A stretch of 64,000 nucleotides of DNA, from the IMG/VR virus record IMGVR_UViG_3300008954_000020, positions 1-64,000 of that record. One strand, given 5' to 3'. Below the pieces are notes generated by a model. The model was not told the origin of the DNA. It was given only the letters and a program-made list of their open reading frames with translations, and ran no database searches. Made by a program: the position numbers and the translations under genes. The DNA comes from a virus. This document shows, piece after piece, positions 5,515 through 44,706 of the stretch. Position 1 is the stretch's first letter. Each line of letters starts with the position of its first letter.

Positions 5515-6867
5515 CTAAAGTTCGCCGCCATCGACAACAGTATCTCCGTCTTCAGCAAGGCCGGATATAGACGAGGTGTTTGCTGCAATTGCATCACGGG
5601 TTTCCTTCTGCACCGTTATCGTGTACTTGACGCCGGAGCTTGGACTAGTCATGCTTATATCAATTGCTGCGCCTTCTTGTATATTAAACTCGCCGACATC
5701 AGTATTAAAAAAGACTTGGGATAGTTCAATCGGATCACCAGAATAAAGGCCCGCAGTAAATCCACCATCGGCATCTCCGCCGGGAATATTAATATCAACT
5801 TTGCCTCGGTTGCCTTTAGTCACTGAAACACCAGCACCCGTAAAGTTTATGTGCCTTGCATCTTTGTTTATCGTAGTTCCGTCTGCCATAACAGCAGTAA
5901 GGTTACCACCCCCACCCTGCATGGTAATTTTGCCAGCGCCACCGGCTTTAGAAAGTTGTTCTATGAATTTTTTATCGAGGGATAGAATTCCATCTTCTTT
6001 AATTTGTAGGGGATAAGTTGCTGTGGCGATGCCTGAGTCCCCTGTATCACCTTGAAGTCCTTGTTCACCTTGAAGTCCGATTGGGCCTTGTTCGCCTTGA
6101 AGACCACCAACACCGTCTTGGCCGTCTCGACCATCCACACCATTGACTCCATCTCTACCAGCAAGTCCGTCTTTACCATCTTGACCATCTTTGCCCGCAA
6201 GTCCCTGTTCACCCTGTGGGCCTTGTGGGCCTTGTATTCCTTGGCGACCGTGAGTACCCTGTTCACCTTGAGGCCCCTGAAGACCCTGTTCACCTTGAAG
6301 ACCTTGTTCGCCTTGAGTTCCTCGTATTCCTTGAGGGCCTTGTTCGCCCTGAATTCCTGTTGCACCATCGAGTCCATCTCGGCCATTGATTCCATCTTTA
6401 CCATCTGCCCCATCTTGGCCGTCTTTACCCGACTCACCTTGCAAACCTTGTGGCCCAATATCTCCATCTCGACCATCTATACCATCTGCCCCTGCATAAC
6501 CTTGATCACCTTTGATCCCAGCCGGCCCAGCTGGCCCTGTAACATATTCAATAATATTGTTTGCTTCTTCTTTTGCTGTTTCTTCAACTATAGGTTTCGC
6601 TGATACAGAATCAAAATATGAATTAATTTGATCGGAATCACCTGTCAATTTGACATCCATACCATAGGAATCCATCAATACAATAGAATTGTTTCCAGTT
6701 CCTATTTGAATAGTCTTATGAATATTTGTAACATCTTCTGTGAAGATAAAGGTTGATGATGCAGAATAATCATCAAGAGTTCTTAATAGAACAAACTCAT
6801 CTCCGTATTCGTGTACATTAGAGAATAAATTCGCATTACCATCAAACCTTTGAAACCTATCAACCAT
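5515..6867 (-). CDS. Collagen-like repeat protein, probable fibre
   Basis: The 450-residue protein has a globular N-terminal domain (about 1-105), a long run of Gly-X-Y triplets (about 110-280, many GEQGPQG, GKDGQDG and GRDG units) and a C-terminal domain of about 170 residues. Gly-X-Y regions form collagen-type triple helices and are common in phage fibres, so a trimeric virion appendage is likely. The C-terminal domain would be the distal or trimerising part. It overlaps the upstream DUF3293-like gene by eight bases, and GGAAG precedes the ATG. The repetitive DNA makes this gene prone to length change. Confidence 0.75.
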
Positions 6868-8521: not shown

Positions 8522-9541
8522 TTAACACACCACCATTGTTGTAGCCTTACATACAGTTTCCATTAGTTTTGAAACTGCACAATATGGATTCATGTTGGCC
8601 GCAGGCCTTCGGTCTTCGAGATATCCCTTGTATGTTTGAGCAGTGACAGGAGGAATGCGAATCGAAGCACCTCTATCTGAATCTCCAGAAGAGAAAACAT
8701 CAATGTGTTGTGTTTCGTGTTCTCCTGTGAGTCTTTGTTCATTCCCCCGACCATATTCATCAATATGTTCTTCGTGTGAATCCATTAGCTTTTTAATAAT
8801 ATGTGTAATATATTGTTTCCCGCCTTCTTCTCTGAGTCTTGCAGTTGAAAAATTAATATGTGCGCCAGAACCATTCCAATCACCTTGAATCGGTTTTGGG
8901 TCAAGACTTACACAGACACCTGCTCGTTCAGAAATCATCTCTAATATGTGTCGTGCAATCCAAATGTCATCACAGACATCAACGGGGCCAGCCGTTCCTA
9001 TTTGATACTCCCATTGTGAAAGCATTACTTCTGCATTTGTTCCACATATAGGAATTCCTAAACTTAGACACATCATTGCATGTTCTTCCACAATACCACG
9101 AAGACGAACAACATCCCCACCAACACCACAATAATATCTACCTTGTGGGTCGGGGAATCCAGTTTCAGGCCAACCAAATGGTCTTTTTGTTTCGGGATTC
9201 ATAAAAACATATTCTTGTTCTATACCAAACCACATTTCAGAATTTTTATATTCTTCTGCAAGTTTGCGAAGTTTCGCACGGGTATTTGATTCGTGTGGGG
9301 TTCCATCTGGATTCATAACCTCACACAGAACAATGTTCTCTCCATAAATTTTAACGGGTTTTAGAACACAATCACTATTGTCTCCATCCGCTTGCATTGT
9401 AGACGAACCATCAAATCCCCATTCTGGAACCGTGTCTAAATCTACACACGGAAGTTCAATGTATTTAACTTTACTTCTAAGGTTCGGAGTCTTATAACCA
9501 TCTAACCAAACATATTCTAATCTACGCAAATTTTCATTCAT
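8522..9541 (-). CDS. glnA: Type II glutamine synthetase
   Basis: The 339-residue enzyme joins glutamate and ammonia to glutamine with ATP. It is of the short GSII type (eukaryote-like, GlnII), not the 470-residue bacterial GSI. Visible signatures are WGFDGSS (41-47), GIEQEY (106-111), NAEVMLSQWEYQIG (169-182), NGSGAHIN (223-230), RLTGEHET (270-277), RGASIRIP (290-297) and YLEDRRPAANMNPY (307-320), so metal, glutamate and ATP sites appear intact. The ATG at 9541 overlaps the primase stop as ATGA and has GGAG six bases upstream. In an infected cell it would raise the glutamine supply for nucleotide and protein synthesis. It sits in the replication operon between primase and ThyX, which argues for early expression. 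Confidence 0.93.
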   Translation of the reverse strand: MNENLRRLEYVWLDGYKTPNLRSKVKYIELPCVDLDTVPEWGFDGSSTMQADGDNSDCVLKPVKIYGENIVLCEVMNPDGTPHESNTRAKLRKLAEEYKNSEMWFGIEQEYVFMNPETKRPFGWPETGFPDPQGRYYCGVGGDVVRLRGIVEEHAMMCLSLGIPICGTNAEVMLSQWEYQIGTAGPVDVCDDIWIARHILEMISERAGVCVSLDPKPIQGDWNGSGAHINFSTARLREEGGKQYITHIIKKLMDSHEEHIDEYGRGNEQRLTGEHETQHIDVFSSGDSDRGASIRIPPVTAQTYKGYLEDRRPAANMNPYCAVSKLMETVCKATTMVVC

Positions 9542-10587
9542 ATCTTTCTCCAATCACGGAAACGAAGAGTTGCTTCCAATCCACTAAATGTATTATTATC
9601 AATAACTTTTTGAATTTCTCTAGTTGACATTCTATACGCCATGTCATTAATGTCTTTTTCTGTAATGTGGTCAGGCCAAATGCAAACCTCTCTACCCAAC
9701 TCAATTAACTTTTCTATGTATGCACAAATCTGTCTGTTGCGTGGTTCGTTGTCAAGGATGTATGTCATGGGCGTATCTTCAAATCGTTCGGGGATTTCCT
9801 TCAATGCTCCTGCACCAACCATTGCTGTAGCGTTTTGTAAAAACAAACTATCTAGTGGCCCTTCTACAACATATACTCGTTTATTTGGATTTACTCTCCA
9901 CAAACCATACCAGAGTCGGTCAATGCTCTTATCGTATTTAACAGTAATGTACTTAAGTGTTTCTCTTGCATTAATTTCATCTTGCATAATTAATGAACGG
10001 CCTTGACACCCCACCACATCACCATGACTATTAAAGAACGGAATTACTAATCGTTCTTCCTCGCCCATCGATAAAATCGATGGGTCAAGTTCTTTGGCAA
10101 AAGAGCCAAAATCTTCAGCATAATATAACAATCCCCAATGTTGTTTTGGAATCTTGCGTATATTTGCAAACTTGACAGCAACATGGTCTTTGGGTAAGTC
10201 CTTGATACATTCTATAGTATTTAAGACTACATCCTTCTTTTTGAATTCTGGTTTTTTACTTGCGAACTTAAACATATCTTCCTTTGATTTCTTTGGGATT
10301 GGTGACTTTTCCCCACCACGATAATTTTCAAGACTGTATTCTTTACAGAGCGAGGGTTGTACTTGCTTTAAAAAATTGTATACATTACTTCCGTGGTTAC
10401 AGTTGTGACACTTATAGAAGAAATCGTTTCCCTTTACATAAAAATATCCTCTTGCCTTTGTTTTAATCTTTGTTGAATCACCGCATATTGGACAAGAACA
10501 ATTTGCTAGTGTGTCTTTCTTCCATTTAAAATTTCTTAATTGCGATGATATACGATTTATAAAAGTCTTATCTATGTAAATAGACAT
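9538..10587 (-). CDS. 61: DNA primase, T4 gp61 type
   Basis: The 349-residue primase lays RNA primers for the lagging strand together with the gp41 helicase. The N-terminus holds a zinc finger (CPICG about residue 33, CHNC about 61). A TOPRIM-like core follows: VYVVEGPLDSLFL carries the conserved Glu, and TYILDNEPRNR and the acidic DHITEKDIND segment complete it. I chose the ATG at 10587, which overlaps the helicase stop as TAATG with GGAG six bases upstream; a GTG four codons earlier is less likely. The length is close to that of T4 gp61. Confidence 0.93.
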   Translation of the reverse strand: MSIYIDKTFINRISSQLRNFKWKKDTLANCSCPICGDSTKIKTKARGYFYVKGNDFFYKCHNCNHGSNVYNFLKQVQPSLCKEYSLENYRGGEKSPIPKKSKEDMFKFASKKPEFKKKDVVLNTIECIKDLPKDHVAVKFANIRKIPKQHWGLLYYAEDFGSFAKELDPSILSMGEEERLVIPFFNSHGDVVGCQGRSLIMQDEINARETLKYITVKYDKSIDRLWYGLWRVNPNKRVYVVEGPLDSLFLQNATAMVGAGALKEIPERFEDTPMTYILDNEPRNRQICAYIEKLIELGREVCIWPDHITEKDINDMAYRMSTREIQKVIDNNTFSGLEATLRFRDWRKI

Positions 10588-11978: not shown

Positions 11979-12336
11979 CTGTACTTCCTGCGGCTTGAAT
12001 TAACCCATCCTCATTTGCGATACTGTCTAGAACAACACATGTGACCAAATTTCCTAAGTATTCGTCTTTGGTGTTACCTTCTTCGTCTTTTGCTTCGAAA
12101 TCAACATTCTTTGGGTTGTCTAGAATATCAGCCGTAAAAGATACAGGAATGTTGCCAGTTTCTTCATCCACGGTTCCAAATTCAACATTGGTGTATCGAA
12201 TGATTAATCCTTTTTGGATTCCCTTTTCTTCTACCTTGACGAAAAGGCCAGATTCATCAAGCCATAGAATCTTATACCCCCTCTTTGGGATTTTCGTCTT
12301 CTTCGGTGTCTTTACTTTCGTTGTTGCTGTTGCCAT
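11947..12336 (-). CDS. Unknown small protein between uvsX and gp41
   Basis: The 129-residue protein has an alanine/threonine/lysine-rich N-terminus ([20 protein letters not shown]), a compact beta-rich middle ([38 protein letters not shown]) and an acidic tail. I see no known domain. AAGGA lies eight bases before the ATG at 12336. The gene overlaps the end of uvsX by 65 bases in another frame and the start of gp41 by 32, so it is embedded in the recombination-replication operon and may be an accessory factor there. Confidence 0.7.
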
Positions 12337-13342
12337 ATTTAAATTCCTTTGCTGCTGCAATTTCTAATGATTTCATAATATCATCAGTAAAATATTTGTC
12401 TGCATCCTTATACAGACTCTTTTCGTATAATTTAGTTCCATTTGGAAGTTCAATTCGTGTTGAAACCTTCTTAAAAATTCCATACTTAACTCCTAGTTCA
12501 ACTAGGCCATAGTATGGGTGTAATCCTTCTTTGTAATCCAATAGAACATCAACCATTGAATTCTCTTTGGTCAATCTCCCCTTGAACAACTTACAGTGAA
12601 TGATATTACCAATAACATCAGTACCATCCTTCACCTTTTTCTTTGAGAGGTAAACAATTGTACTGGCTGCATATTTTAGTCCAGAACCACCTCCCATAGT
12701 TTTTGTTGGAAACATAGAACCTACCACATCATAGGTATGGTTGGTCATAATCATTGGAATGCCTGCCTGTCCTAATTTTAGGGTCAACACACGAAATGTT
12801 GCCTTAATCATTTGGGCCCGTGTCATATCACGGGTTCCTTTTCCGGCAGCAGTATCTTCCATTTCCTTTGTTGTAGAGAGCATACCAAGAGAATCCAAAA
12901 CAATAAGCATTGGTTTCTTATCGGCTTTCTTTAGTTCTCTATAGTTGTCAACAATTTGAATTGCTTGATGTCGAAAATCTTCAACCGTTGCAACAGGAAA
13001 TACTGCAACACGGCCGGGATCAATGCCCCGTTCAATAAACATATCCGATGTTACTGCCTGTTCGCTGTCAAAATAAAGGACAACGCCATTATCATTGTCA
13101 GCAAGAAACTTATTAACAATGCCGAGACTAAAATAGGTTTTGCCCGTAGCGCTTTCCCCAGCAAGTGCAATAATCTTATTGTCTGGTATACCACCGTAGA
13201 GGCTACCAGAAAGCAAAGCATTAAAACTAAAACTTCCAGTGTCGCAAAAGGCATGTACATCTGCTCCTTCCAGTCCTTCATCGATTGATGATGCGTATTC
13301 ATTTCCTGATGCGGAAATCATTTTTGATAACAGTTCACTCAT
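12272..13342 (-). CDS. uvsX: RecA-like recombinase UvsX
   Basis: The 356-residue strand-exchange protein has Walker A GESATGKT (62-69), a Walker B strand ([10 protein letters not shown], about 143-152) and the loop [20 protein letters not shown] resembling the DNA-binding L2 region. The C-terminus is acidic ([13 protein letters not shown]), as in T4 UvsX. It works with UvsY (47531-47965) and gp46/gp47 in recombination-dependent replication. GGAGG lies ten bases before the ATG. Confidence 0.95.
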
Positions 13343-13344
13343 AT

Positions 13345-13539
13345 TTATGAATCCTCCATAATTTTATGTAATTTAGTTCTTATTATACCAAGTTTTTCAA
13401 CTTCGTCAACTATTTTTTCTACATGTTCTTGTTTTGTTGTCTTAGACAACATCATCTTTTTAATTTTTGGTTTGTGATATCCTATCGTCCTATCTAAGAA
13501 TGAAATCAAAAACTTTAATTCTTTTTTATCTAAATTCAT
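13345..13539 (-). CDS. Unknown 64-residue basic helical protein
   Basis: The ATG at 13539 overlaps the stop of the Mom-like gene (ATGA), with AAGGA nine bases upstream, so the longer frame starting at 13632 is not used. The product ([20 protein letters not shown]...) is lysine-rich and predicted helical. I do not recognise it. Its coupling to the Mom-like gene makes a partner role possible. Confidence 0.65.
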
Positions 13540-14165
13540 TCTAAAAATCCTTCTAACGAAGATACCCCATATGTCTTCAAACACATTTTGGGTTTTGTGC
13601 CCTTTCTTCTTTTTGTCAAATCGTACAACCATATGATTTTTGGTTCTCCTGTTTTAATAATTGCTTTGCCCTGTTTAACATCTTCTCTCATCTCATACGA
13701 ATATGGTCTATCGATTGTCAATGACCGCATGTGGTATGTCTTCCCCCTCCATTCAACATATTTCGTTGGAGATGTCTTACCCGATTCAGTAAAATTTGTT
13801 GCTTTGTAAATTGTACCGATATGTCCTTGAGTTAAATCCGAGTAAGACAATACACTGTCATAATTAGTATTGGTCACCAGATATTTTATTATACTTCCTA
13901 GAAACCAACTCTCGCTGTTGTGTGGTGCTTCGTCTAAACATGCCATCCTTCTGATGTCAATACAATTGTTGTATTTGCTTTCGTGTCGTGGTTTTCCAAG
14001 AACACTTCCACCTACCAATTTACCATCGATAAGCATTGCAAAACAAACACTAATGCCACCACCCATGTGACCTTTCTTGTAATGAAAGTCTTCAAAGATA
14101 TGTCGTATATCTGAGAAGTTACATAGTTGCATCTCACAGTCGTGTTTGTTCAGTTTATTCGTCAT
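13536..14165 (-). CDS. Mom-like DNA-modification protein (GNAT fold) with clamp-binding tail
   Basis: The 209-residue protein follows the layout of the phage Mu Mom family, a GNAT-fold group that modifies adenine in DNA: HY at 28-29, a strand pair with LVGGSVLGKPR (50-60), PHNSESWFLG (81-90), and SYSDLTQGHIGTIYKATNF (107-125) with Asp110 and Tyr120. In Mom the corresponding His-Tyr, Ser, Asp and Tyr are functionally important. The last seven residues, SLEGFLE, resemble the hydrophobic clamp-binding tails of gp43 (TLEGLFS) and gp55 (SLDEFLD) in this window. That suggests tethering to the gp45 clamp and replication-coupled modification; this is inference. The gene lies between polymerase and uvsX and overlaps the 64-residue gene (ATGA). 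Confidence 0.75.
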   Translation of the reverse strand: MTNKLNKHDCEMQLCNFSDIRHIFEDFHYKKGHMGGGISVCFAMLIDGKLVGGSVLGKPRHESKYNNCIDIRRMACLDEAPHNSESWFLGSIIKYLVTNTNYDSVLSYSDLTQGHIGTIYKATNFTESGKTSPTKYVEWRGKTYHMRSLTIDRPYSYEMREDVKQGKAIIKTGEPKIIWLYDLTKRRKGTKPKMCLKTYGVSSLEGFLE

Positions 14166-14502
14166 CTCTTTTAATTATAGAATAGATTTCCTCTACTAAC
14201 TTAATGTGTTCTGGTGTAAATGATGCCATGTGTTTGGCAGTTCCAATTGCGCCCGTTAAACTTCCACTAAGGTTTTTGCTCCATCTTTCTTCTATTGTGA
14301 TTTTCTTCTTTTTTCGTTTAGTTTTCTTCTTTTTCTTTTTGGGTGGTTTTTCCTCCCATCCCATCTTCTTCCATTCTGTCTTCTCGGCATCGGTGATGGA
14401 AAGTTCAGCAATTTGCTTTTTCCTTCCCCGTTTACCAAGGACAGTTCCATTCATTCCACGAACATCACATAGAGATTTTCCCCAGTTTCCTCTCTTACTC
14501 AT
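14155..14502 (-). CDS. Unknown lysine-rich protein next to DNA polymerase
   Basis: The 115-residue protein has a polylysine centre (KPPKKKKKKTKRKKKK, about residues 53-68) between two less biased parts. It is probably nucleic-acid binding by charge. Its ATG overlaps the polymerase stop (ATGA), and its end overlaps the start of the Mom-like gene by 11 bases, so the three are coupled. No family is recognised. Confidence 0.7.
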   Translation of the reverse strand: MSKRGNWGKSLCDVRGMNGTVLGKRGRKKQIAELSITDAEKTEWKKMGWEEKPPKKKKKKTKRKKKKITIEERWSKNLSGSLTGAIGTAKHMASFTPEHIKLVEEIYSIIKRDDE

Positions 14503-17051
14503 GAGAACAATCCCTCTAGTGTGGTTCGTCTTTCATGTGACCATCCAATTGCATCGAGGATATTTTTTATAGGGTCGATAAATGATTTGGTAAACTGTTC
14601 ATCGTAATGTACAAACCCTGTTAAGTTTAATTCTTTCGGTAATGAATTAGAGAAAGAAATGACTTTATCATGAATCGGATTTGGAATCTTTAGATACAAG
14701 AATTTTATTTTATCACCTTCCATAATTCTTTGATATTTTCGTTGCACTCCTTTTTCTTTAGTCCAGTGATTAAAGAGTAATGCCCCCTTGACCGCAATTG
14801 GAGTTGACTTTTTATAAATTGTGGTGTTATCTTTATATCGACTTAATCCATTAACCCCTCTTGGAAAAGCAATATCTTCTGGAGGCAGTTTCATAAACTC
14901 ATCTCGAAAATTTTCAATGTAATTGATAACAGTTTCTTTATCGGTTTGTAGAATTAATCTAATGGATTCTTTTAACTTGTCTCGTACTGCTTGTGGAGTA
15001 GATGAACGAGTAGTTTCAATTCCCATAATTTTGGGTTTTGGTTTTGAATACCTAACACCTTCGGTATCATACACATTTAGGGCATATCGTTTCTTCGCTG
15101 TCCAGAGGCCTTTGTCTGCAATACACTCTCTGTCCATCACCATCTTATTTTCATATGCATTCATCAACTTTGCAAGTTTGTCATATTCCTTTTTGATGAA
15201 GGGTAAGATAATTTCTTCTGTTGATTTGTTTAGGAAGTCCACCACCTTCGACTTCGATGAAGAGGGACAAACTTTATCCACAAGATTCCCAAGACGCAGA
15301 TAAACACTATCTGTATCAGATGCGACAACATAATCATAATCCTCCGTACCAATTGTTTTATTTAAAAATTCATTTAGTTTATCTGCAATCCAACGGATAC
15401 TCAACTGACCCGACAAAGTAATTGCTTCTGCCATGTCAACATCATAATAACGAAACCATTCATTACCAATTGCACCATACGCTGAGTTCAACTGAATCTT
15501 TCGAACCTGTTGGAAATTGTGGTACTTTGCAATTTCATAATCTTTTTCAGCGAGTAACTTCGAAACATCACCACCAAGGGCGCCAGATTTTAAAATGGAT
15601 TGTCTTTCTTTTTGACATTCAATCATTTTCTTCTTGAACATCTTTCGCTCTTTGTACATCTTCTCCATGAGTGCAGGAAGAAACCCCTGATGTTCTCTGG
15701 TGTAACAAGTTCCATTTGCAGCGACCGAGTAATTTTTGTCTGTATGCGTTTTAAGTGCATCCGTAAAATGGTCAGACTGTTCACCAAGAACGCCATTGGG
15801 TGTAATCATATAATCTTGCATCTGGTCAATCTTAGTTTCGGGACTAATGTTGTATTGCATGATTAAATGAGGATACAAACTATTCAAGTCAAGAGATACA
15901 ACCCAATCGTGCATACCAACAATCGGGTCTTTCACATATGCGCCTGCATACTTAGAATCTTTATGACCATGTGACTTCATGGGAATTACAATTTTCTTTG
16001 AACTGAGATAATGGTAGATAATTTGATCCCAAGTTTTAACTTGAGAAAATACATCTGGAATATTTACTTTCGCTGAATATGCCATAGCAAGTGCAAGTTC
16101 AATGAGTTTAAGTTTGTCTTCCAACTTTTGAATTAGTTCAGTATCTTTGATGTTGTATTCAATGAACTTTTGAAAATCCTGTTTATAAAATTCTGACATA
16201 CTATCGAATTCTTCATAGGACAACTTTCGTTCTCCTAATTCAACAAAAGCGATATGGTCAAGACGATATGATTCTTGATTTACATAAGTAAATTTTTGAT
16301 AGAGGTCGAGATAATCTAAAGTTGAAATGCCTTCCAAAATATAAACGGGAAGTTCTCGATTCATCTTGTGTACTGTTCTTTTTATAACTCTGCCCCAAGG
16401 GGATAGTTTGTTTGTGATATCATCACCAAGAAGTTTCTTGCACCGATTTACGATATATGGAATATCAAAGAACTTTACATTCCAACCTGTAATAACATCG
16501 GGGGCGATTTCACTCCATGTTTGGATAAATTCTCCAAGAAGAAGTTCCTCATCATCGAATGATTTCCAAATTAGATTTGGTTCATCGGGAAGAGTAAATT
16601 CTCCCAACCCATACACATACTTGGTGCCACCAACAATCAGTGTTATTGCATTTATTTGTTCTATGGCATCTTCAACTTGAGGGAAACCATTATCACATGT
16701 AGTTTCGATATCAATATATGCGATATGAATTTTATCCATATCATAGGTAACTTCATCGGGATGGAGTTCACCAATAAATTGATAGATGTAATCTGTATTA
16801 CCAAAAATTTCAAACCCATTAACGGATTTGTATTTTTCGATAAACTCACGGGAGTCCGACATTGTGCCGGGCGTTATTGGTTCTACCGATTTCCCGTCTA
16901 GAGTTTTCCAGTCATTCGGTGATGGTCTTTTCTTCGGAACAAATAGGGTGGGTTGAAAATCAACCTCAAACTTTTTGCGTTTACCATCGCAAACGGCCCG
17001 ACAAAGAATTTTATTTCCTCGCCGAGAAATGTTGGTATAGAAATTAGACAT
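14499..17051 (-). CDS. 43: Replicative DNA polymerase, family B, T4 gp43
   Basis: The 850-residue polymerase carries a full 3'-5' exonuclease: AYIDIETT (Asp114, Glu116), GWNVKFFDIPY (Asp196) and YNIKDTEL (Asp303). The polymerase motifs are SLDLNSLYPHLI (A, Asp388), KIQLNSAYGAIGN (B, about 518-530) and ASDTDSVYL (C, Asp579, Asp581). The C-terminal TLEGLFS is the expected sliding-clamp-binding tail. It is about 50 residues shorter than T4 gp43 (898). The gene lies downstream of the promoter inside dut and overlaps the next gene as ATGA. Confidence 0.97.
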   Translation of the reverse strand: MSNFYTNISRRGNKILCRAVCDGKRKKFEVDFQPTLFVPKKRPSPNDWKTLDGKSVEPITPGTMSDSREFIEKYKSVNGFEIFGNTDYIYQFIGELHPDEVTYDMDKIHIAYIDIETTCDNGFPQVEDAIEQINAITLIVGGTKYVYGLGEFTLPDEPNLIWKSFDDEELLLGEFIQTWSEIAPDVITGWNVKFFDIPYIVNRCKKLLGDDITNKLSPWGRVIKRTVHKMNRELPVYILEGISTLDYLDLYQKFTYVNQESYRLDHIAFVELGERKLSYEEFDSMSEFYKQDFQKFIEYNIKDTELIQKLEDKLKLIELALAMAYSAKVNIPDVFSQVKTWDQIIYHYLSSKKIVIPMKSHGHKDSKYAGAYVKDPIVGMHDWVVSLDLNSLYPHLIMQYNISPETKIDQMQDYMITPNGVLGEQSDHFTDALKTHTDKNYSVAANGTCYTREHQGFLPALMEKMYKERKMFKKKMIECQKERQSILKSGALGGDVSKLLAEKDYEIAKYHNFQQVRKIQLNSAYGAIGNEWFRYYDVDMAEAITLSGQLSIRWIADKLNEFLNKTIGTEDYDYVVASDTDSVYLRLGNLVDKVCPSSSKSKVVDFLNKSTEEIILPFIKKEYDKLAKLMNAYENKMVMDRECIADKGLWTAKKRYALNVYDTEGVRYSKPKPKIMGIETTRSSTPQAVRDKLKESIRLILQTDKETVINYIENFRDEFMKLPPEDIAFPRGVNGLSRYKDNTTIYKKSTPIAVKGALLFNHWTKEKGVQRKYQRIMEGDKIKFLYLKIPNPIHDKVISFSNSLPKELNLTGFVHYDEQFTKSFIDPIKNILDAIGWSHERRTTLEGLFS

Positions 17052-22196: not shown

Positions 22197-22204
22197 TATT
22201 TATC
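22197..22204 (-). promoter_or_regulatory. Possible late promoter GATAAATA
   Basis: One mismatch from TATAAATA, 17 bases before the ATG of the 151-residue structural gene. It would start late transcription of the fibre block independently of the glycan island. It overlaps the end of the upstream glycosyltransferase gene. Confidence 0.35.
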
Positions 22205-23414
22205 GTTTTACTTTCTTTCTCTTTTTGAAAGTTCTGGGCTTTTTGGTTTGTTCTACGGATAAAGACATTTCTTGTTGTCTTTTTTGCCTCATAGCAGTCA
22301 TTTTTTCTTTATGTTGTTTATTGGCTGCTTCATATTGTTCTAAGTTTTTACGAAGTCGTTCCTCATATCCATCGGGGAGTTTCATTGACAATAACTTTCT
22401 GGTATGTCGCAATCCTTCATCAAATTCATGAACATAAAATGCTGTAGCAGAAAGTTCATCTAAAACCATGAAGTCGTAAACATCTTTATTTACAAACAAA
22501 ATATCCCATTCAGGAAATTTAATACTCGAAGCTATCTTTGCATACAAATATGCAAGTCTAGGTTGTTCTTTCATGCGAAGATATCTAGACAATTCGTGGA
22601 GTGATTCTGCTCGAATTGGCCGGAAATTCCATGCATTTGTCATGGCCATTACAACTTCTTCCATTGGTTTTTCCAACAACATGGTACACAATCCTATTCG
22701 ATAAAGAGAAAAGTATGTCTCTTCTTCCCATCCGCCCATTGCTGCTCTCTTTTTATATGATTCAATTGCTTTCTCATATTGATGTGAATCAAAATATGAC
22801 TGGGCCAAATAAAACTGATATCTAGAATTATTGGGTTCTTCCTTTAGGGCCTCTTCCAACATGATAGCATCTTTTGTGTATTTTTCAACGGGGGTTTGTC
22901 CCACATTTCTTGCACCCAAAGTTCTGGCCTCTACAGTCCAATCTCCAAATAGTTTTTGTAGTTGGGGTGGTCGGTTTTCTTTGAGCCGAGGGAATTCGTG
23001 TAATACACCCTCATACATCCAACTTCCATCATTCTTGAATGTTTGAATTCTCCACCATTCAAGATTTCCTCTTTTTAATCTAACTTCATAACCTTCTTGA
23101 TTCATGTCATTTGGCCATTTTAAATCACCAACAACCTTATCATCTGCATCAATCATAAAGATATAATCTGTTTTGCCGTTACAAGCATCAAGTGCTAGGC
23201 TTCTGTTGTGACTGAAGTTAACCCATTCGTGTTCTAGAAGTTCGCCAGGAATTCCCCTTTCTTCAAAGAAGTCTTTAATGATTTCTTTGGTGTTGTCGGT
23301 TGAACCTGTATCACAAATGCACCAGTAATCGATGTGGTCTGCAACCGATTCTAAACATTCATGGATGATATGGGACTCATCTTTCACTATCATTGATAAA
23401 CATATTGTACTCAT
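22200..23414 (-). CDS. Family 2 glycosyltransferase with TPR-like repeats
   Basis: The 404-residue protein starts with a GT-A domain: LSMIVKDESHIIHECLESV, CDTGSTDNT (35-42) and the metal-binding FMIDADD (86-92). Residues about 165-300 read as helical TPR-type repeats (NSRYQFYLAQSYFDSHQYEKAI). The C-terminus is a basic helix (KTKKPRTFKKRKKVKR-like end). GT2 enzymes with TPRs often glycosylate proteins or glycans. It is the last gene of the sugar island and adjoins the fibre genes, so a virion protein acceptor is conceivable. The ATG overlaps the upstream epimerase stop (ATGA). Confidence 0.85.
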   Translation of the reverse strand: MSTICLSMIVKDESHIIHECLESVADHIDYWCICDTGSTDNTKEIIKDFFEERGIPGELLEHEWVNFSHNRSLALDACNGKTDYIFMIDADDKVVGDLKWPNDMNQEGYEVRLKRGNLEWWRIQTFKNDGSWMYEGVLHEFPRLKENRPPQLQKLFGDWTVEARTLGARNVGQTPVEKYTKDAIMLEEALKEEPNNSRYQFYLAQSYFDSHQYEKAIESYKKRAAMGGWEEETYFSLYRIGLCTMLLEKPMEEVVMAMTNAWNFRPIRAESLHELSRYLRMKEQPRLAYLYAKIASSIKFPEWDILFVNKDVYDFMVLDELSATAFYVHEFDEGLRHTRKLLSMKLPDGYEERLRKNLEQYEAANKQHKEKMTAMRQKRQQEMSLSVEQTKKPRTFKKRKKVKR

Positions 23415-24310
23415 AATAATTCCTTTTGTTGGTTAATCCAGTCTTCTAATTCCACTTTTGGTTTCCATAATAAAAGATTCTTTGCTTTATTTATGTCAGA
23501 TAAACTGTTCTCTATTTCGGTCGGGCGGGGTTCGATAAGTCGTTGATTGTCTGAAATCATATCAGCGATTTCCTTTATAGAATAAGATGTTCCTGTACCA
23601 ACATTAATAATTTCTCCCGATTTAATTTCTTGTTTAAATGCAGCAATCATGTTTGCTTCAACAACATCTGACACATGAATAAAATCTCTTCGTTGTGTGC
23701 CATCAGGAACAATAGTCAATGGTTCATGGTTTTTCTTTTGGTCTAAAAACTTTCCAATGACTGGAACATATGGGCCACGGATAGGTTGCCGTGCTCCATA
23801 TACATTGAAGTATCGAAATATTACAGTTTCAAGTCCATACACGGACGAATACATTTTGCATAGTTCTTCTCCTGCAACCTTGGTAACTGCATACGGGTTC
23901 AAACAATCATTCTGCATATCTTCTGTGTTTGGAATATTATTTAATCCATATGCGGCCGCAGTTGATGACATTATAATTCGCTTTACTCCATTTTCTCTTG
24001 CGGCTTGAAGAATATTACATGTTCCTAATATATTGGTTTGAACTGCAAGTTGTGGATTTCCTATTGTAGATTGTATTTTTGATTCTGCAGCAAGGTGAAA
24101 CACAACATCAATATTTTCGAATGAATTTTTTATCCATCTATATTTTGCAATGTCCAAGTTTTTATATTCTGCATTTGGATTTTTGTAATATTCTTCATGA
24201 GAATCTGATGATTCGTTATCGATGACTAAAACCTTATGTCCTTCATCAATCAAGGCATCCACAATATGCGACCCGATAAATCCTGCACCGCCTGTTACTA
24301 AAAATTTCAC
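23411..24310 (-). CDS. NAD-dependent sugar epimerase/dehydratase (SDR)
   Basis: The 299-residue extended short-chain dehydrogenase has TGGAGFIGS (6-14) for NAD binding, MSSTAAAYG with Ser115/Ser116 and NPYAVTK with catalytic Tyr140 and Lys144. It resembles UDP-glucose 4-epimerase-type enzymes acting on nucleotide sugars. The exact sugar is not decidable. The start is GTG with GGAAA seven bases upstream; the gene overlaps the GT2 gene as ATGA. Confidence 0.85.
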   Translation of the reverse strand: MKFLVTGGAGFIGSHIVDALIDEGHKVLVIDNESSDSHEEYYKNPNAEYKNLDIAKYRWIKNSFENIDVVFHLAAESKIQSTIGNPQLAVQTNILGTCNILQAARENGVKRIIMSSTAAAYGLNNIPNTEDMQNDCLNPYAVTKVAGEELCKMYSSVYGLETVIFRYFNVYGARQPIRGPYVPVIGKFLDQKKNHEPLTIVPDGTQRRDFIHVSDVVEANMIAAFKQEIKSGEIINVGTGTSYSIKEIADMISDNQRLIEPRPTEIENSLSDINKAKNLLLWKPKVELEDWINQQKELL

Positions 24311-24337
24311 TATAATGTTTCCTTTGTCACGAATTTT

Positions 24338-25456
24338 TCAATATTTATTGATAGATTCTATTATATGATATTTTTCATTATCAGCCAACCACCAACCAAC
24401 AGGAATATTTATCATGTGTTTGGTGAACTCATCTACACCCGACAACGAGTATCGGTCAAATTCTTTAAATACAGAATAGGTATCATTCCTTACATGAACG
24501 GAGTCACAGGCAATATCGTACTTATTCATATGTGCCTTAAATTCTTCGATGTCATCTACCAACAAAGAATATATCCATGAGGATGTTTCTGCCCATTCGG
24601 GTCTATCTAGTATCCTTACTTTGTCGTTTGAAATGTTTTCATCATAGAACTTGCAATTGCCTTTGTGAGCTTGGACAATGCCATCGATATATTTTAATTG
24701 TTCTAACCCGATGACAGCATTTATATTATTCATGTGAAACTTATATCCACATTCGAGGATATCTTGTTCCCATTTTGGGCCTTGGTATTTTCTATCAAGA
24801 CCAAACCATCTTAATTTTTTTCCTCTTTCGTATTGCGATTCATCTTTACAATACAAAGCACCACCATCTACTGTTGTCAAGTGCTTGATTGCCTGAAACG
24901 AAAAACAACCATAGTCGCCCACAGTTCCCACAGGTTTACCTTTATACTTTGCACCTATAGCATGAGCAGCATCTTCAATTACTGGAATGTGTTCATCATA
25001 CCATACAGGATAATTCATTTCTTGTACGGTTCTGTCGAAATTCATTAAGGCGTCAACATCAAATGGTTGTCCTGCCCAATGAACACCAACAATTGCTTTA
25101 GTTTTATCGGTGATTCTATTAGCAACATCCTTGGGGCAAATGTTTCCTGTTCTTGGGTCAATATCTGCCCAAACAATCTTCGCACCCCTATGAATTATAG
25201 GTTCATTAGTTGCCATACAAGTCATGGGAGATGATATTACTTCATCGCCAGGCTGAACATCTGCTAGATGATACGCAAGAGATAAAGAAGAAGTTCCGCT
25301 GTTTGTTAATAAAACTGTTTGAGAATCTATAAATTTTTGAAACTCTGATTCAAATCTATCAGAATATTCTCCTTCAGTAATAAATCCACCTTCGAATACT
25401 TCTTCAATTTTTTGACCGATACCTTTTGGGTGGTGAATTTTAAATAATGATATCAT
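24338..25456 (-). CDS. DegT/DnrJ/EryC1-type PLP-dependent sugar aminotransferase
   Basis: The 372-residue enzyme transfers an amino group, usually from glutamate, to a 3- or 4-keto nucleotide sugar. TNSGTSSLSLA is the cofactor phosphate loop, EDAAHAIGA (161-169) contains the cofactor Asp, and FSFQAIKHLTT carries the Schiff-base Lys191. The ATG at 25456 overlaps the dTDP-glucose dehydratase stop as ATGA, so the two are made together and probably act in sequence to give an amino-dideoxy sugar. The upstream ATG at 25471 lacks support. Confidence 0.9.
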   Translation of the reverse strand: MISLFKIHHPKGIGQKIEEVFEGGFITEGEYSDRFESEFQKFIDSQTVLLTNSGTSSLSLAYHLADVQPGDEVISSPMTCMATNEPIIHRGAKIVWADIDPRTGNICPKDVANRITDKTKAIVGVHWAGQPFDVDALMNFDRTVQEMNYPVWYDEHIPVIEDAAHAIGAKYKGKPVGTVGDYGCFSFQAIKHLTTVDGGALYCKDESQYERGKKLRWFGLDRKYQGPKWEQDILECGYKFHMNNINAVIGLEQLKYIDGIVQAHKGNCKFYDENISNDKVRILDRPEWAETSSWIYSLLVDDIEEFKAHMNKYDIACDSVHVRNDTYSVFKEFDRYSLSGVDEFTKHMINIPVGWWLADNEKYHIIESINKY

Positions 25457-26448
25457 AAGGTTTCCAACCATTCAGGATGTTCTAAAGTCCATTGTATAGT
25501 ATTACGAAAAGATTCTTCAAAGTTTACAGGCAATTCCCAACCCATAGATTTCATCTTCTCTCCACTTAAACTATATCTAAGATCATGGCCGGGACGGTCA
25601 CTATGAAAATCTACCATTTCATATTTTAAAGGTTTTCCAATTATATCAGCAATTAATTTTGCCAATTCTAAATTGTCTACTTCTTTCTCACCAACTACAT
25701 TGTACTTTTCTCCCACTTCTCCCTTTTCAAGAAGGAACAAAACAGCGGCAGCAATATTACGAGCATGAATATAGAAACGACTACCTGCTCTTTTCTTATC
25801 TGGATATGAATGAATCATTACTGTTTCGTCATTCAGAACCTTTTTGATTACAAGCGGAATGTACTTTTCTACATGTTGTCTTTCACCGAAGGCATTCATG
25901 ACATTAATACTCATAAGAGGAATCTTATATGTGTTTTCGTATGCAACACAAATCTGTTCTGCGGCTGACTTACTTGCAGAATAAGGATTTGTTGGTTTGT
26001 GTCTATCCCACTCACCAAACGCAAAATCATCTGGAGCAGAACCATATACTTCATCCGTGCTAAAGTAGAAAAACATTTCAAGATTCGGTAGGGATTTAGC
26101 ATACTCTAACATCTCTACTGTGCCGTCAATATTATTCCTGAAAAATTCTCTAGGTTGACTTATACTATTGTCAACATGAGACTCAGCAGCCATATGAACA
26201 ATAACATCAACATCACCAAGTTCTTTTCTCAATCCTTCTGTCATCGGTAATGTAACATCATTACAGAATACTTTAAGTCTTGGATTGTCCAGTGCAGGAA
26301 TAGAACGAAGTCTTTCTAATCCCATACTAGCATAACTTAGTTTATCAATAACGACAATATCCCAATCCGTATTTATTAGTAAATGTTCTACCACATGATG
26401 ACCAATGAATCCACATCCGCCTGTCACTATTACTTTTTTCTTTTTCAT
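25453..26448 (-). CDS. rmlB: dTDP-glucose 4,6-dehydratase (RmlB-like)
   Basis: The 331-residue SDR enzyme has GGCGFIG (10-16), FYFSTDEVYG with the family's Thr131-Asp132-Glu133 set and NPYSASK with Tyr156/Lys160, the signature of RmlB. It makes the 4-keto-6-deoxy intermediate from dTDP-glucose. No RmlA is present in the window, so dTDP-glucose must come from the host or from another part of the genome. GGAG lies eight bases before the ATG. A related nucleotide-hexose dehydratase is the alternative. Confidence 0.9.
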   Translation of the reverse strand: MKKKKVIVTGGCGFIGHHVVEHLLINTDWDIVVIDKLSYASMGLERLRSIPALDNPRLKVFCNDVTLPMTEGLRKELGDVDVIVHMAAESHVDNSISQPREFFRNNIDGTVEMLEYAKSLPNLEMFFYFSTDEVYGSAPDDFAFGEWDRHKPTNPYSASKSAAEQICVAYENTYKIPLMSINVMNAFGERQHVEKYIPLVIKKVLNDETVMIHSYPDKKRAGSRFYIHARNIAAAVLFLLEKGEVGEKYNVVGEKEVDNLELAKLIADIIGKPLKYEMVDFHSDRPGHDLRYSLSGEKMKSMGWELPVNFEESFRNTIQWTLEHPEWLETL

Positions 26449-26463
26449 AACATATTCTCCTTC

Positions 26464-27291
26464 TTAACAATATCCATAGTAATCCTTATGGGCAACATCA
26501 CTCGTTGCATTCAAAAATTCATACGCTTCATCGAAATCAACCCCGAAGAAATTTCCGCCCGCATGGTGCAACCTAGTAGGGAATCCCACTTCTCCAAAAA
26601 AGATTCCGTGACGGCCATGCCTGTACCTCTCTTCATCTGGCGCAAGCGTAAACTTACCTATTAGGGATTCTATCTTCTCAAGATTTTCATATTTCATAAC
26701 ATACGGGTCTTCACACCACCAATAATTGTGATGCAATTGCGTCTGACATGTCTCTTTGTTGCGTGGTGTTTCATATTCCACCCATCTGTCGGGTTTTCGG
26801 CCTAGAGGGAAAGTCTTCTTCCCAATTTTTCTAAACTTTTCAGGAGATGCTTTAAACCATTCATCGTGCCACATTGAACCAACGAATAAACAACCTTCAT
26901 CAAAATGATGTTTTATGTCATCGATGTATGTTGGTTTTGCAAACACAAAATCATCTTCCCATGTTCCAAAATACTCACTGACTATGGATTTCTTTTGGAG
27001 CAAATGTTTGTAGACATTCCACATTGATTTCACTGTCCCACCACTATTGGGTTGGGGAAAGACTACCACATCCAGTATATCATCTTGCACTTCCATTATC
27101 TGATTCACTGATTTCATCAACATCATCTCATCTTCGTCACACATCAAAGAAATAACAAGAAGATTCTTGTCATATTCCTTGTCGGTCAAATCAATTGATT
27201 TTACTTTATCAGCATGTTTCCATAGATTTTCGGGCCTATCGTTACCATGCCAATAACACACATTATGAATGTAGTAATACTTGGTGTTCAT
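26464..27291 (-). CDS. Putative glycosyltransferase of unknown family
   Basis: The 275-residue protein shows a GT-A-like order: LLVISLMCDEDEMMLMKSV near the N-terminus, a strand with VVVFPQPNSGGTVKSMW, and GTWEDDFVFAKP whose EDD could be the metal site. Later parts are rich in Trp, His and Tyr (HHNYWWCEDPYVMKYE, RYRHGRHGIFFGE). It lies within the glycan island and overlaps the cytidylyltransferase stop (ATGA). Donor and acceptor are unknown. Confidence 0.6.
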   Translation of the reverse strand: MNTKYYYIHNVCYWHGNDRPENLWKHADKVKSIDLTDKEYDKNLLVISLMCDEDEMMLMKSVNQIMEVQDDILDVVVFPQPNSGGTVKSMWNVYKHLLQKKSIVSEYFGTWEDDFVFAKPTYIDDIKHHFDEGCLFVGSMWHDEWFKASPEKFRKIGKKTFPLGRKPDRWVEYETPRNKETCQTQLHHNYWWCEDPYVMKYENLEKIESLIGKFTLAPDEERYRHGRHGIFFGEVGFPTRLHHAGGNFFGVDFDEAYEFLNATSDVAHKDYYGYC

Positions 27292-30145: not shown

Positions 30146-30151
30146 TGTCTC

Positions 30152-36453: not shown

Positions 36454-36837
36454 TTATTTAGGGTTTTCAGTACTTGACCACAGTTTACGAAGAGATATGA
36501 TGTTTTCTTTTGTCATTAACTTTTTATATTCCCGAGCCCTTCGGGTGTTTATGTTATAGTGTTGTTTTATTAATTCAACATCGGGGTCGTTTTCTATCTT
36601 AAACCACTTACTAAATCTTCTTCTTGACCGTGTAGAGTTTAAAAGATAATCATATTGAACCTTGTTGTCCAAGTGACTGGACATATTCATTTCATTTGAT
36701 TGCATAATGGTGTCTGGGAAATAAGACAAACATCGATTTATTACAAAGGGTGTATATAATCGTTCTGCTTCTGGACAGTTGTCCAAAGCGTTCTTCTTGG
36801 TAGAATTAATCGAATTAAGAAAATCGCCAAGTTTCAT
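36454..36837 (-). CDS. 62: Clamp loader small subunit gp62
   Basis: The 127-residue protein resembles gp62 in TPFVINRCLSYFPDTIM, NEMNMSSHLDNKVQYDYLLN and RRRFSKWFK. With gp44 it loads the gp45 clamp. T4 gp62 is 187 residues, so this is a compact form. The start overlaps the upstream unknown gene (ATGA) and regA follows directly. In T4 the gene lies next to gp44; here two extra genes separate them. Confidence 0.9.
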   Translation of the reverse strand: MKLGDFLNSINSTKKNALDNCPEAERLYTPFVINRCLSYFPDTIMQSNEMNMSSHLDNKVQYDYLLNSTRSRRRFSKWFKIENDPDVELIKQHYNINTRRAREYKKLMTKENIISLRKLWSSTENPK

Positions 36838-37940: not shown

Positions 37941-38230
37941 CCGAATTTAACATCTTTACCTATAACAGCAACTATTTTTTCGATATCAACAATCATATAA
38001 TCCTCCACAGACCACCACACTGCTTGCTTGATTATTACTCTATCGCCTACTGTAAACGGCGGTTCGGGCATTTCTATACCTTTGCTATTTATGGGTGGTG
38101 GGCCAATGGCCGCTACAACACCTGTGGTATATTTCGGGCCTCTCTTTTGTTGATATATAATCAATCCTTCGTGAGTTCGAAATTCATCTTCCTTGATGGC
38201 AACTTTGCCGGCATACGGAATAAATTTCAT
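37937..38230 (-). CDS. GroES-like co-chaperonin
   Basis: The 97-residue protein follows the GroES fold order: IPYAGKVAIKEDEFRTHEGL (first strand and mobile-loop region), GPKYTTGVVAAIGPPP (roof hairpin), FTVGDRVIIKQ and a C-terminal strand DIEKIVAVIG. It should cap host GroEL to fold phage proteins, as T4 gp31 does for the capsid protein gp23. T4 gp31 is 111 residues and GroES 97. The gene overlaps gp44 and the next gene (ATGA both), an unusual place for a co-chaperonin. Confidence 0.82.
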   Translation of the reverse strand: MKFIPYAGKVAIKEDEFRTHEGLIIYQQKRGPKYTTGVVAAIGPPPINSKGIEMPEPPFTVGDRVIIKQAVWWSVEDYMIVDIEKIVAVIGKDVKFG

Positions 38231-39171
38231 TTGAATTCACACTCCATCATTAATTGAACTAAACATGCAGTAATATTAATCTCAGGGTCGGCAACAAATG
38301 CAGCCTTATACTGATAATCTCCGAGAATCAAGATGGCCATCGGAATGGTTTTTGATTCAAGGTGGTCGTATAATCCATCATATATGGTTCGAAAGATTTT
38401 TGTTTGGTCATTGTCGATATTATCAACAACCCACTTACGAACTTCATTAAAGTTTTTTGTCTTCATATTATCCATTAAAGAATCAATACGAAGGTCGCCT
38501 GTGGAAGAAAGAATACCAACATCGATTTTTCCTGAAACAGAATATCGTTGAAGTTCATTAAGAACCCTACGAAAATCGGGAAAGTGTTTCATGATTAATT
38601 CTGCAAGAACCTTGTCGTTGTATTCGATATTTTCAGTTTCTAAAATTAACTTACATCTATCAAAAACCTGTTCTGCAAGAACCTTTTTCTCTTTGCCGGG
38701 AATACGAAATTCTACAGTTGTACATCGTGAATGTAAAGGTTCGATGATTCTATTTTTAAAATTGCATGTTAGAATAAATCGACAGTTCGATGAGAACTCT
38801 TCAATAAATCCACGAAGTGCGGGTTGGGTTGACTGTGCATTTGAATAATCAAATTCATCAAGGATGACTACTTTTTGTCCACCAGCAATTGAAACCGTAC
38901 TTGCAAAGTTTCGAATCTTTGTTCGAAGGGTATCAATATTACCATCCTCGGAACAGTTAATTAGAATATAATCTAACTCAAGTTCATGACACAGTGCTCG
39001 AGCCACTGTTGTCTTTCCACATCCTGCACCGCCCGACAAGAGAAGATTTTGCATCTCTCCTGAATTAATAATTTCTTGAAATGTTTCTTTAATAGAATAA
39101 GATAGAATGCAATCTTTGACTCTTTGAGGACGATATTTTTCGACCCACAAAGTGTTTTCAATAGTTTTCAT
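38227..39171 (-). CDS. 44: Clamp loader large subunit gp44 (AAA+ ATPase)
   Basis: The 314-residue protein has WVEKYRPQRVKDCIL (N-terminal box), LSGGAGCGKTTVAR (Walker A), VVILDEFDYSN (Walker B), ILTCNFKNRI (sensor 1) and EPLHSRCTTVEF with the SRC arginine finger. It forms the gp44/62 loader that opens the gp45 ring. The ATG at 39171 is set by GGAGA five bases upstream; an in-frame start at 39207 lies inside gp45. Confidence 0.96.
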   Translation of the reverse strand: MKTIENTLWVEKYRPQRVKDCILSYSIKETFQEIINSGEMQNLLLSGGAGCGKTTVARALCHELELDYILINCSEDGNIDTLRTKIRNFASTVSIAGGQKVVILDEFDYSNAQSTQPALRGFIEEFSSNCRFILTCNFKNRIIEPLHSRCTTVEFRIPGKEKKVLAEQVFDRCKLILETENIEYNDKVLAELIMKHFPDFRRVLNELQRYSVSGKIDVGILSSTGDLRIDSLMDNMKTKNFNEVRKWVVDNIDNDQTKIFRTIYDGLYDHLESKTIPMAILILGDYQYKAAFVADPEINITACLVQLMMECEFK

Positions 39172-39172
39172 A

Positions 39173-39865
39173 TTATTCTCCGTAGTGAGAATCAGATTCC
39201 ATAGCAATATAATACTTCAAATCGATTGATTTGTGATTAAATTGTGATACAATCTTTTCTGTGATACTTACATCATAATCGCCGGGAAGGATTTTAAGAT
39301 TTTCTACCTTGAAGTAAAATTCGAAATCCTCACTTGTTCCAAGTTCGCCCAAATCAATAGAGTAACTATTACTGCCACGGTCAGCCTTATCCAGAGCAAC
39401 AAGTTGTAAAACCTCGCCGTCATTTCGGACACAGATATCAGGAACCTGAAGAACTGCAGCCGCCTTTTGGATTTCATTGAATTGTTTTTGAGTTAATTCA
39501 AAAGAAACAACAGGTTCCGGCATATTAAGTTCTTTTGTTGCTGACAACAAAAGCGATGGGTCAGAATAATGATATCGAACAGATGCACCACCGCTTTCAC
39601 TGATGGTCACATACTTTTCTTCAAACATCAATTCGGGATTATTAAATAATGAAATAGTTCCAAGGAACTTGTTCAAATCCCAAACGCCAAACGGAATATC
39701 AAAATCTTCAGACACAGTTGCTTCTGCCATGATATTTTTCATGGGAGATAATGTCTTGATTGTATTTCCTGTTTCGACCAGAAGGTTCGTATTAATTGTT
39801 GCAAAGTTTTTGAGAATGTCGAATGTATTTCGACTCAATTTCACTGTATTCATAGTTGTAGTCAT
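39173..39865 (-). CDS. 45: Sliding clamp gp45
   Basis: The 230-residue protein (T4: 228) forms the trimeric ring that tethers gp43 and, with gp55, activates late promoters. T4-like landmarks are KLSRNTFDILKNFATINTNL (5-28 region), DIPFGVWDLNKFLGTISLF, VSFELTQKQFNEIQKAA and ISLDLGELG-like strands toward the end. The start follows immediately after the TGA of the 76-residue gene. Three proteins in the window have C-terminal tails that could dock in its subunit groove. Confidence 0.94.
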   Translation of the reverse strand: MTTTMNTVKLSRNTFDILKNFATINTNLLVETGNTIKTLSPMKNIMAEATVSEDFDIPFGVWDLNKFLGTISLFNNPELMFEEKYVTISESGGASVRYHYSDPSLLLSATKELNMPEPVVSFELTQKQFNEIQKAAAVLQVPDICVRNDGEVLQLVALDKADRGSNSYSIDLGELGTSEDFEFYFKVENLKILPGDYDVSITEKIVSQFNHKSIDLKYYIAMESDSHYGE

Positions 39866-43110: not shown

Positions 43111-44171
43111 TGTGAAAGACTCTCCGTGTACAGGTCTTTAATTATCTTCTTCAACTTTCCTGTGTTTTCAATTTCTTCCATTGTATCAATCTCATTCAGA
43201 ATAAGTGTCAGTGTATCCTTGGACATGTCAATAACATCCTCATCATCAATTTCTTGTTGAATTATGTCTTCAATAATTGTGAGATTGCCTACTTGTGCAT
43301 TATACAGTTTATCTAAGAACCTGTCAAACAAATAAGGACTTCTTTTATATCTTACAAAAACTTTAACTTGCCCATTTTTATATTTTTTGAAATCGCCGGA
43401 CTTAATCCAATCTTCGATTTTTTCTGATTCACTATCATCATAATCGATAGCATGAAACATCCGTAATGGGTTTTCAATAAATTCAAGAGTTCTAGTTTCT
43501 GTATCAAAAACATGAAATCCCTTTCGGACATTTAAATCCGTAAAAGTAATTTGATACTGGGCTCCCAAATAATAAATGTTATCTTTATTGCTCTTTTGAT
43601 GAAAGTGTCCAGACCAAACTTGTTCAAATCGTTTTAACGGTTTATCATCCATCCCACCATCATGTCTAATGCCGGGCACAATTTCATAACCATTTAATTC
43701 AAAATGACCCACAGCAATAGGACATGCCGTAGAGTCCAATAACTTTAAACACTTGTCTTTGTTTGATTTATTTATCCACGGAACCATAACAAAACCTTCT
43801 TTATCTAACCACAGTTCTTGTGGTGTTTCGATGATATTAAAGTTTTTGTAACGGTTACCTAACAATTCACGAACAGAATTTAGTTCGTTAGTATTTTTGT
43901 AATAGGTATCGTGATTACCAAGAATAATATGAGTTTCTATACCGATATCTTCTAACGGTTCTAGAAATCTTTTTCTGGTATTATTAAGTGTATTGAAATT
44001 TACAAATTTCCTTCTGTCCATCAAATCGCCCAAGTGAAAAATAGCGTCTATTTTATTCTCTTGGATGTAGGGAAAGAAGGTTTCTTCAAAAAACTGAAAG
44101 AAGTAATCTGCAAATATTTGGGAGTCCGCTCGAGCCCCAAAGTGCGTGTCATTAATCAGTGCTATCTTCAT
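43107..44171 (-). CDS. 47: Recombination nuclease subunit gp47 (Mre11/SbcD-like)
   Basis: The 354-residue phosphoesterase has the metal motifs INDTHFGAR (1), HLGDLMDRRK (2), ILGNHDTYYK (3), and VGHFELNG plus WSGHFHQKS later. It is the nuclease partner of gp46. The C-terminal region (YTESLSQ end) is the gp46-binding part by family analogy. The gene overlaps gp55 by 20 bases. Confidence 0.95.
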   Translation of the reverse strand: MKIALINDTHFGARADSQIFADYFFQFFEETFFPYIQENKIDAIFHLGDLMDRRKFVNFNTLNNTRKRFLEPLEDIGIETHIILGNHDTYYKNTNELNSVRELLGNRYKNFNIIETPQELWLDKEGFVMVPWINKSNKDKCLKLLDSTACPIAVGHFELNGYEIVPGIRHDGGMDDKPLKRFEQVWSGHFHQKSNKDNIYYLGAQYQITFTDLNVRKGFHVFDTETRTLEFIENPLRMFHAIDYDDSESEKIEDWIKSGDFKKYKNGQVKVFVRYKRSPYLFDRFLDKLYNAQVGNLTIIEDIIQQEIDDEDVIDMSKDTLTLILNEIDTMEEIENTGKLKKIIKDLYTESLSQ

Positions 44172-44706
44172 TATCTAAAAACTCGTCTAGGCTTCCTTGC
44201 TTTTTTTTAGTTTTCTTTTTCTTTGGTTCGAACTTTTCAATATCTGTTGGAGACAATCTCATCATGTCTGCAATTGGATTATCGCTATTTGTTCTGACCT
44301 TTAAATTTTCTTTAATTGAACCGTCAATATCGGTTATTTCCATCATTTTGTATTTGATGTAATTTTGTTTCTTTTCTTTTTGAATTCTACGCAGGAATGC
44401 ATAATAAATTATTTGAGTAAAATATGAAAATGGATTTTTAGATTTATCAGGGTCGAAATTACTGCAATACATTAAACAGTTTTCGATTCCATCCCCTATC
44501 ATTTCTTCTCGATAGGGATAATTTATAAAGTTTGGTCGCCAAGCCAAATTTGTTGCAATGTCAACAAAACATTTTCCAATATATTCGGTAACAGGAGGTT
44601 TATCTTCCCCTTGTGCCTCAGCATTTTTTACTTGTTCTTTCCATTGTTTCATTGCCGCATAAAATTCTTTATTATCAATATAATGATTTACTTTCTTTTT
44701 AGCCAT
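44152..44706 (-). CDS. 55: Late-transcription sigma factor gp55
   Basis: The 184-residue protein (T4: 185) directs host RNA polymerase to TATAAATA promoters. The conserved core is NFINYPYREEMIGDGIENCL, FDPDKSKNPFSYFTQIIYYAF and RRIQKEKK, the region 2-like part. The C-terminal SLDEFLD (172-178) is the expected sliding-clamp tail. A near-consensus early promoter (44739-44766) precedes it, with AGGAGG before the ATG, so it is made early to open the late programme. Confidence 0.94.
   Translation of the reverse strand: MAKKKVNHYIDNKEFYAAMKQWKEQVKNAEAQGEDKPPVTEYIGKCFVDIATNLAWRPNFINYPYREEMIGDGIENCLMYCSNFDPDKSKNPFSYFTQIIYYAFLRRIQKEKKQNYIKYKMMEITDIDGSIKENLKVRTNSDNPIADMMRLSPTDIEKFEPKKKKTKKKQGSLDEFLDNEDSTD

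Follow-up and report, generated by a model that had tools for sequence, protein, structure and literature searches.

A Mom-family enzyme with a putative clamp-binding tail in a marine T4-like phage

Mom proteins and clamp-bound DNA-modifying enzymes

The Mom protein of phage Mu (structure 8bv8; families PF25680 and PHROG 1384) shares its fold and residues of its catalytic region with the enzyme analyzed here. However, the two proteins are only ∼20% identical, and Mu Mom ends in KLFKVQPYPK, in which no clamp motif is present. An earlier note on this DNA had stated that Mu Mom is not known to be clamp-tethered, and this stands, as the literature searched reports no such tether. In phage T4, the clamp-binding tails of DNA polymerase gp43, late sigma factor gp55 and gp33 are experimentally known and mutually exchangeable, and the clamp is common to all three proteins (PMC2988020). 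Their motifs follow the same pattern as the tail described below, but they are known on replication and late-transcription proteins and not on Mom.

Attachment of a phage DNA-modifying enzyme to gp45 has been described for T4 alpha-glucosyltransferase (Sommer 2004; confirmed in PMC13216743), although this enzyme and its chemistry are unrelated to those of Mom, and inspection of its C-terminus revealed no clamp motif of this kind. The larger glucosylation share of alpha-glucosyltransferase was ascribed mostly to expression and not to clamp contact (PMC13216743); thus, a tether may have little effect even where gp45 is bound. In eukaryotes, a clamp motif recruits DNMT1 to PCNA so that modification follows synthesis (PMC9690074), whereas the purpose there is inheritance of cytosine methylation rather than phage self-protection. 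The Mom family, a clamp-bound phage modification enzyme in principle and DNMT1 on PCNA are therefore already known. What appears to be new is that a putative clamp tether occurs on Mom, has arisen repeatedly and has been swapped to match a phage or host clamp: the literature searched contained no paper that connects Mom and a clamp, and none on repeated origin of the tether or on host/phage-clamp exchange.

The Mom gene and its replication neighbors

The window, that is, the whole 64,000-nucleotide stretch of DNA under analysis, comes from a marine T4-like phage. The following features are relevant here:

12272..13342, minus strand: UvsX-like recombinase (PHROG 97, 2.3e-83)
13536..14165, minus strand: Mom-family DNA-modification enzyme, 209 aa (PF25680, PHROG 1384, AlphaFold, 8bv8 match)
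13539..13559, minus strand: clamp-binding-type motif SLEGFLE of Mom, residues 203-209 (homologue conservation, polymerase-derived profile, model helix)
13560..13616, minus strand: basic linker of Mom, residues 184-202, drifting in sequence and missing in tailless Moms (alignments, column counts)
14499..17051, minus strand: family B DNA polymerase of T4 gp43 type, C-terminus TLEGLFS (PHROG 262, E=0)
14502..14522, minus strand: polymerase C-terminal clamp-binding motif TLEGLFS (pattern common to 73/80 related polymerases)
36454..36837, minus strand: clamp loader small subunit, gp62 (PHROG 225, 1.1e-39)
38227..39207, minus strand: clamp loader large subunit, gp44 (PHROG 168, 1.2e-121)
39173..39865, minus strand: gp45-type sliding clamp, presumed partner of Mom (PHROG 223, 3.1e-74; RB69 clamp 1b77/1b8h, 9e-24)
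44152..44706, minus strand: late sigma factor gp55 (PHROG 234, 1.5e-61)
44173..44193, minus strand: gp55 clamp-binding motif SLDEFLD (likeness to T4 gp55, SPSLDFLYEAND)

The plus strand of 13536-14165 is interrupted by stops throughout, and the open reading frame (ORF) is read on the minus strand. The earlier note had recognized the motif order of Mom in this ORF, and each motif is found in the translation at the expected place (H28-Y29, N83-S84-E85-S86, S107-Y108-S109-D110, G117-T118-I119-Y120 and SLEGFLE at 203-209). The match to the Mom family and structure that the note had proposed as a check is also present. The protein matched Pfam Mom PF25680 at 4.2e-22 (79.2 bits, against a curated cut-off of 27.1) and PHROG 1384 ('Mom-like DNA modification protein') at 1.8e-31. 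An AlphaFold model based on an alignment of 46 homologues reached a mean pLDDT of 92.4, and Foldseek placed phage Mu Mom 8bv8 on top of its PDB matches (E=2.8e-11, prob 1.00, TM 0.67), with ordinary GNAT acetyltransferases ranking below it. Ten residues (H28, Y29, R73, E85, S86, S107, D110, Y120, Y144 and H145) did not vary across an alignment with Mu Mom among its members; in it, S86 corresponds to Mu Mom S124, the residue replaced (S124A) in the 'inactive mutant' of 8bv8. The product of 13536-14165 is a Mom-family enzyme with a GNAT fold.

Both tails to which the note had likened SLEGFLE, TLEGLFS of the polymerase and SLDEFLD of gp55, are present as described; the gp55 motif is subterminal and is followed by six residues, NEDSTD. 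T4 gp43 ends in KASLDFLFG and T4 gp55 carries SPSLDFLYEAND, and the motif columns of the five proteins align (T4 gp43 SLDFLF, T4 gp55 SLDFLY, window polymerase TLEGLF, Mom SLEGFL and window gp55 SLDEFL). Among 80 polymerases of related viral contigs, 73 have an [ST]LE-type end and seven end in ATLF.

The gene order polymerase-Mom-uvsX is kept in Mom-bearing relatives. In a close relative whose polymerase is 80% identical (L269), the polymerase, a small ORF and uvsX adjoin and Mom is missing between them, which indicates that Mom is an accessory insertion. Between the polymerase and Mom genes of the window, a lysine-rich 115-aa protein is encoded (14155-14502, minus strand), for which Pfam and PHROG searches gave no family match and tblastn found no counterpart in relatives, where low complexity may hide matches. 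Other genes on the minus strand of the window include a phage-encoded glutamine synthetase (8522-9553, PF00120), a structural-type protein with a collagen-like repeat (5515-6867, PF01391) and a long run of apparent sugar-metabolism genes (22200-35997); the tested members of this run are family 2 and family 11 glycosyltransferases, a DegT aminotransferase and a LicD protein, whereas the remaining members (epimerases and others) were assigned by eye.

C-terminal tails and the replication systems of their genomes

The core of the window Mom ends at residue 183 with its last strand, KIIWLYDL. Beyond the variable linker, the C-terminus agrees with the T4-type pattern S/T-L-D/E-x-(F/L)-(F/L), except that the final position of the motif is L, whereas F is most common there in polymerases. 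The earlier note had asked whether the tail is kept among close homologues, and this is so: all eight with a complete C-terminus, which are 80-100% identical to the window Mom (one is identical over its available part), have the same architecture of linker and motif and an [ST]LE[EG]x[LFM] end (SLEGFL, TLEEFF, SLEEHF, TLEEHL, TLEEYL, SLEEFM, TLEEHL and SLEGFL), and [ST]LExxF is found at the end of their polymerases. In these homologues, L and E of the motif never change although the leucine is encoded by four different codons and the glutamate by two, and column counts of the homologue alignment showed that several linker columns vary freely whereas the motif does not. An overlapping gene as the cause of tail conservation could be ruled out, the sole overlap with the next gene being a 4-base ATGA. 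Likewise, recent copying from the 3' end of the polymerase gene was rejected since most motif codons differ between the two tails. In the AlphaFold model, the linker is modelled fairly confidently and confidence is lowest for the last nine residues, with a short, low-confidence helix at 204-208; such a tail would suit a peptide that becomes ordered on binding its partner.

According to the earlier note, other replication proteins have no comparable tail. This holds for all 107 ORFs of the whole 102,578-base record, in which only the polymerase, Mom and the subterminal gp55 motif match. As the gp45-type pattern was written after the tails had been seen, the test was repeated by scoring every ORF end with a profile built from 49 polymerase tails alone. 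In the genome of the window (G000), the polymerase scored 17.2 bits and Mom 12.0, and the next ORF 6.0; the likeness of the Mom tail thus exceeds chance. Two further, unrelated lineages with gp45-like tails were identified among 135 distinct Moms: L119 (SLSNFF) and L174/L177 (SFEEWF). With the same profile, Mom, the polymerase and the next ORF scored 11.2, 9.4 and 4.9 in the record of L119 (G032), and 8.4, 8.4 and 1.0 in that of L177 (G033). Just two C-termini, those of polymerase and Mom, matched each time in the three genomes (107, 62 and 106 ORFs), a sample that is biased because G032 and G033 were picked for the clamp-like tails of their Moms, although neither the presence of a polymerase and clamp system nor agreement of the polymerase tail was a selection criterion.

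The matching machinery predicted for the two further lineages was found in the records of both. G032 encodes gp45 and a T4-type polymerase ending in KLDEFFC. In G033, there is a clamp loader, and the polymerase, a divergent member of family B, ends in SFEEWFK; here, Mom and the polymerase share an end, SFEEWF plus one residue. No recognizable clamp was found when G033 was searched for gp45, only the loader and one ORF without assignment. This unassigned 272-aa ORF, which lies beside the loader and polymerase (59775-60593, plus strand, across L258/L259), might encode a sliding clamp that has diverged strongly. In the phylogenetic tree, the three tailed lineages stand apart, and the closest relatives of L119 and L177 have no such tails; the gp45-type tail has arisen at least three times, the changes being forced by well-supported branches.

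In a sister clade, the Mom cores are ∼60-72% identical and followed by a similar basic linker, but the ends of the tails are different and include QQSLF, QQTLF, QYKLF, QETLF, QINLFD, QQKLF, QTKLF, QISLF, QIAIF, QIKLYE and QQTLNI. The consensus for binding to the bacterial beta clamp is QL[S/D]LF, or more generally QxxLF (PMC12309361). After dereplication at 90%, a beta-clamp motif was present at the end of Mom in 14 out of 23 clusters, compared with 8 out of 453 other ORFs from eight of their contigs (Fisher p=8e-16); for strict QxxLF, the fractions were 7/23 and 2/453. Shuffled tails gave a mean of 0.04 matching clusters. Six of the nine clusters outside the beta-clamp pattern are still of LF type at the end. 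No T4-type polymerase, gp45, PolA or DnaN was detected in the sister-clade records searched; as most records are fragments, such absences are weak evidence. One of them (G004) encodes a primosomal protein, SSB, RecT and exonuclease VIII and has no detectable polymerase, a gene set resembling that of phages which rely on the replisome of their host. Pol III alpha is encoded in just one sister-clade record (G008, 162.7 kb; L405), and the Mom of this record (L031) has no beta-clamp motif. A QLTMF end has arisen independently in a distant Mom (L086). In addition, a DNA N6/N4-methylase (PF01555) in G015 (L111:6803-7411, plus strand) ends in VSQQKLF, identical to the QQKLF-type tail of the nearby Mom, and may be a second modification enzyme tethered to the host clamp.

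A tail as a general trait of Mom could be ruled out, as Moms that belong to neither of the two tailed clades mostly stop 0-10 residues past the core. Sampling of about 18 Moms from cultured phages revealed no such tail in any of them: those of EniLVp02, S-SSM7, Phynn, ICP1, RaK2, DSL-LC03, K412 and others stop at or just past the core, and the longer-ended ones (AS-zj, Geobacillus PK3.6 and some distant Moms) have no clamp motif. Tailless Moms also occur alongside gp45, in G048 and in Straboviridae and Kyanoviridae isolates. Thus, the tether would be an option, and Mom can generally function without it.

Alternative explanations and proposed role

Likeness of a motif alone does not prove docking, and three other explanations should be considered. 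The tail could be an ordinary hydrophobic C-terminal helix, serving a dimer contact or core packing, with a coincidental likeness to clamp motifs. The short helix and fairly confident linker of the model agree with this explanation, and short hydrophobic tails are frequent enough for chance occurrence; we nevertheless regard it as unlikely, given that only the polymerase and Mom match in each of three genomes, that Mom and polymerase of G033 have SFEEWF in common, that QxxLF replaces the tail in sister Moms although their cores are ∼65% identical and that many homologues have no tail at all. Alternatively, the tail may bind the clamp for other ends, such as regulating replication or late transcription or marking sites of DNA synthesis, with modification of the phage's own DNA not being the point. 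Sharing of the clamp by polymerase, gp55 and gp33 (PMC2988020) and the toxin SocB, which stops replication via a clamp-binding motif (PMC9690074), lend some weight to this possibility. However, the catalytic core of Mom is fully conserved and the methylase of G015 has the same tail as Mom, which suggests that modification of DNA is what the tailed enzymes have in common, and we consider these other ends quite improbable.

The remaining alternative concerns the substrate: a GNAT enzyme with the Mom fold might have a target other than adenine of the phage, such as a different base, DNA of the host or a small molecule. The versatility of the GNAT fold and the low identity to Mu Mom leave some room for this. 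We consider it unlikely, since the HY motif, the serine of NSES, D110, Y120 and the pair YH are all shared with Mu Mom and the Pfam Mom score is above the cut-off. The explanation that we consider probable combines a GNAT-fold Mom, a predicted adenine modifier, with tethering to gp45 by SLEGFLE, the tails of relatives being fitted to the clamp that replicates each phage, including the host beta clamp. A Mom carried by the clamp had been suggested in the earlier note, and this reading gained support from at least three tail origins, the match to the polymerase of the same genome and host-clamp-type tails in relatives in which no clamp was found; binding itself we infer from these patterns.

On this explanation, the flexible C-terminal SLEGFLE would dock in the gp45 pocket that also receives the tails of polymerase and gp55, and a Mom riding on the clamp would reach freshly made phage DNA. 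Adenines of the new DNA would then be modified in step with synthesis, and the modified DNA would escape host restriction. In relatives, the tail would be fitted to whichever clamp replicates the phage, the host beta clamp included.

In practical terms, a phage must get every genome copy modified before host restriction strikes, and clamp-carried modification would offer a concrete answer to how this is done. We lean toward a recurrent, swappable strategy of tethering DNA-modification enzymes to the replication clamp, in which phages retain the Mom core and adapt its terminal peptide to the clamp in use, be it gp45, a divergent clamp of their own or the beta clamp of the host; in the last case, they may modify DNA at the fork while riding on a host protein. 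A natural swap experiment is provided by one catalytic core bearing matched tails of different types (gp45 type, SFEEWF and QxxLF), which also suggest that phages without their own polymerase may protect themselves by recruiting the beta clamp of the host.
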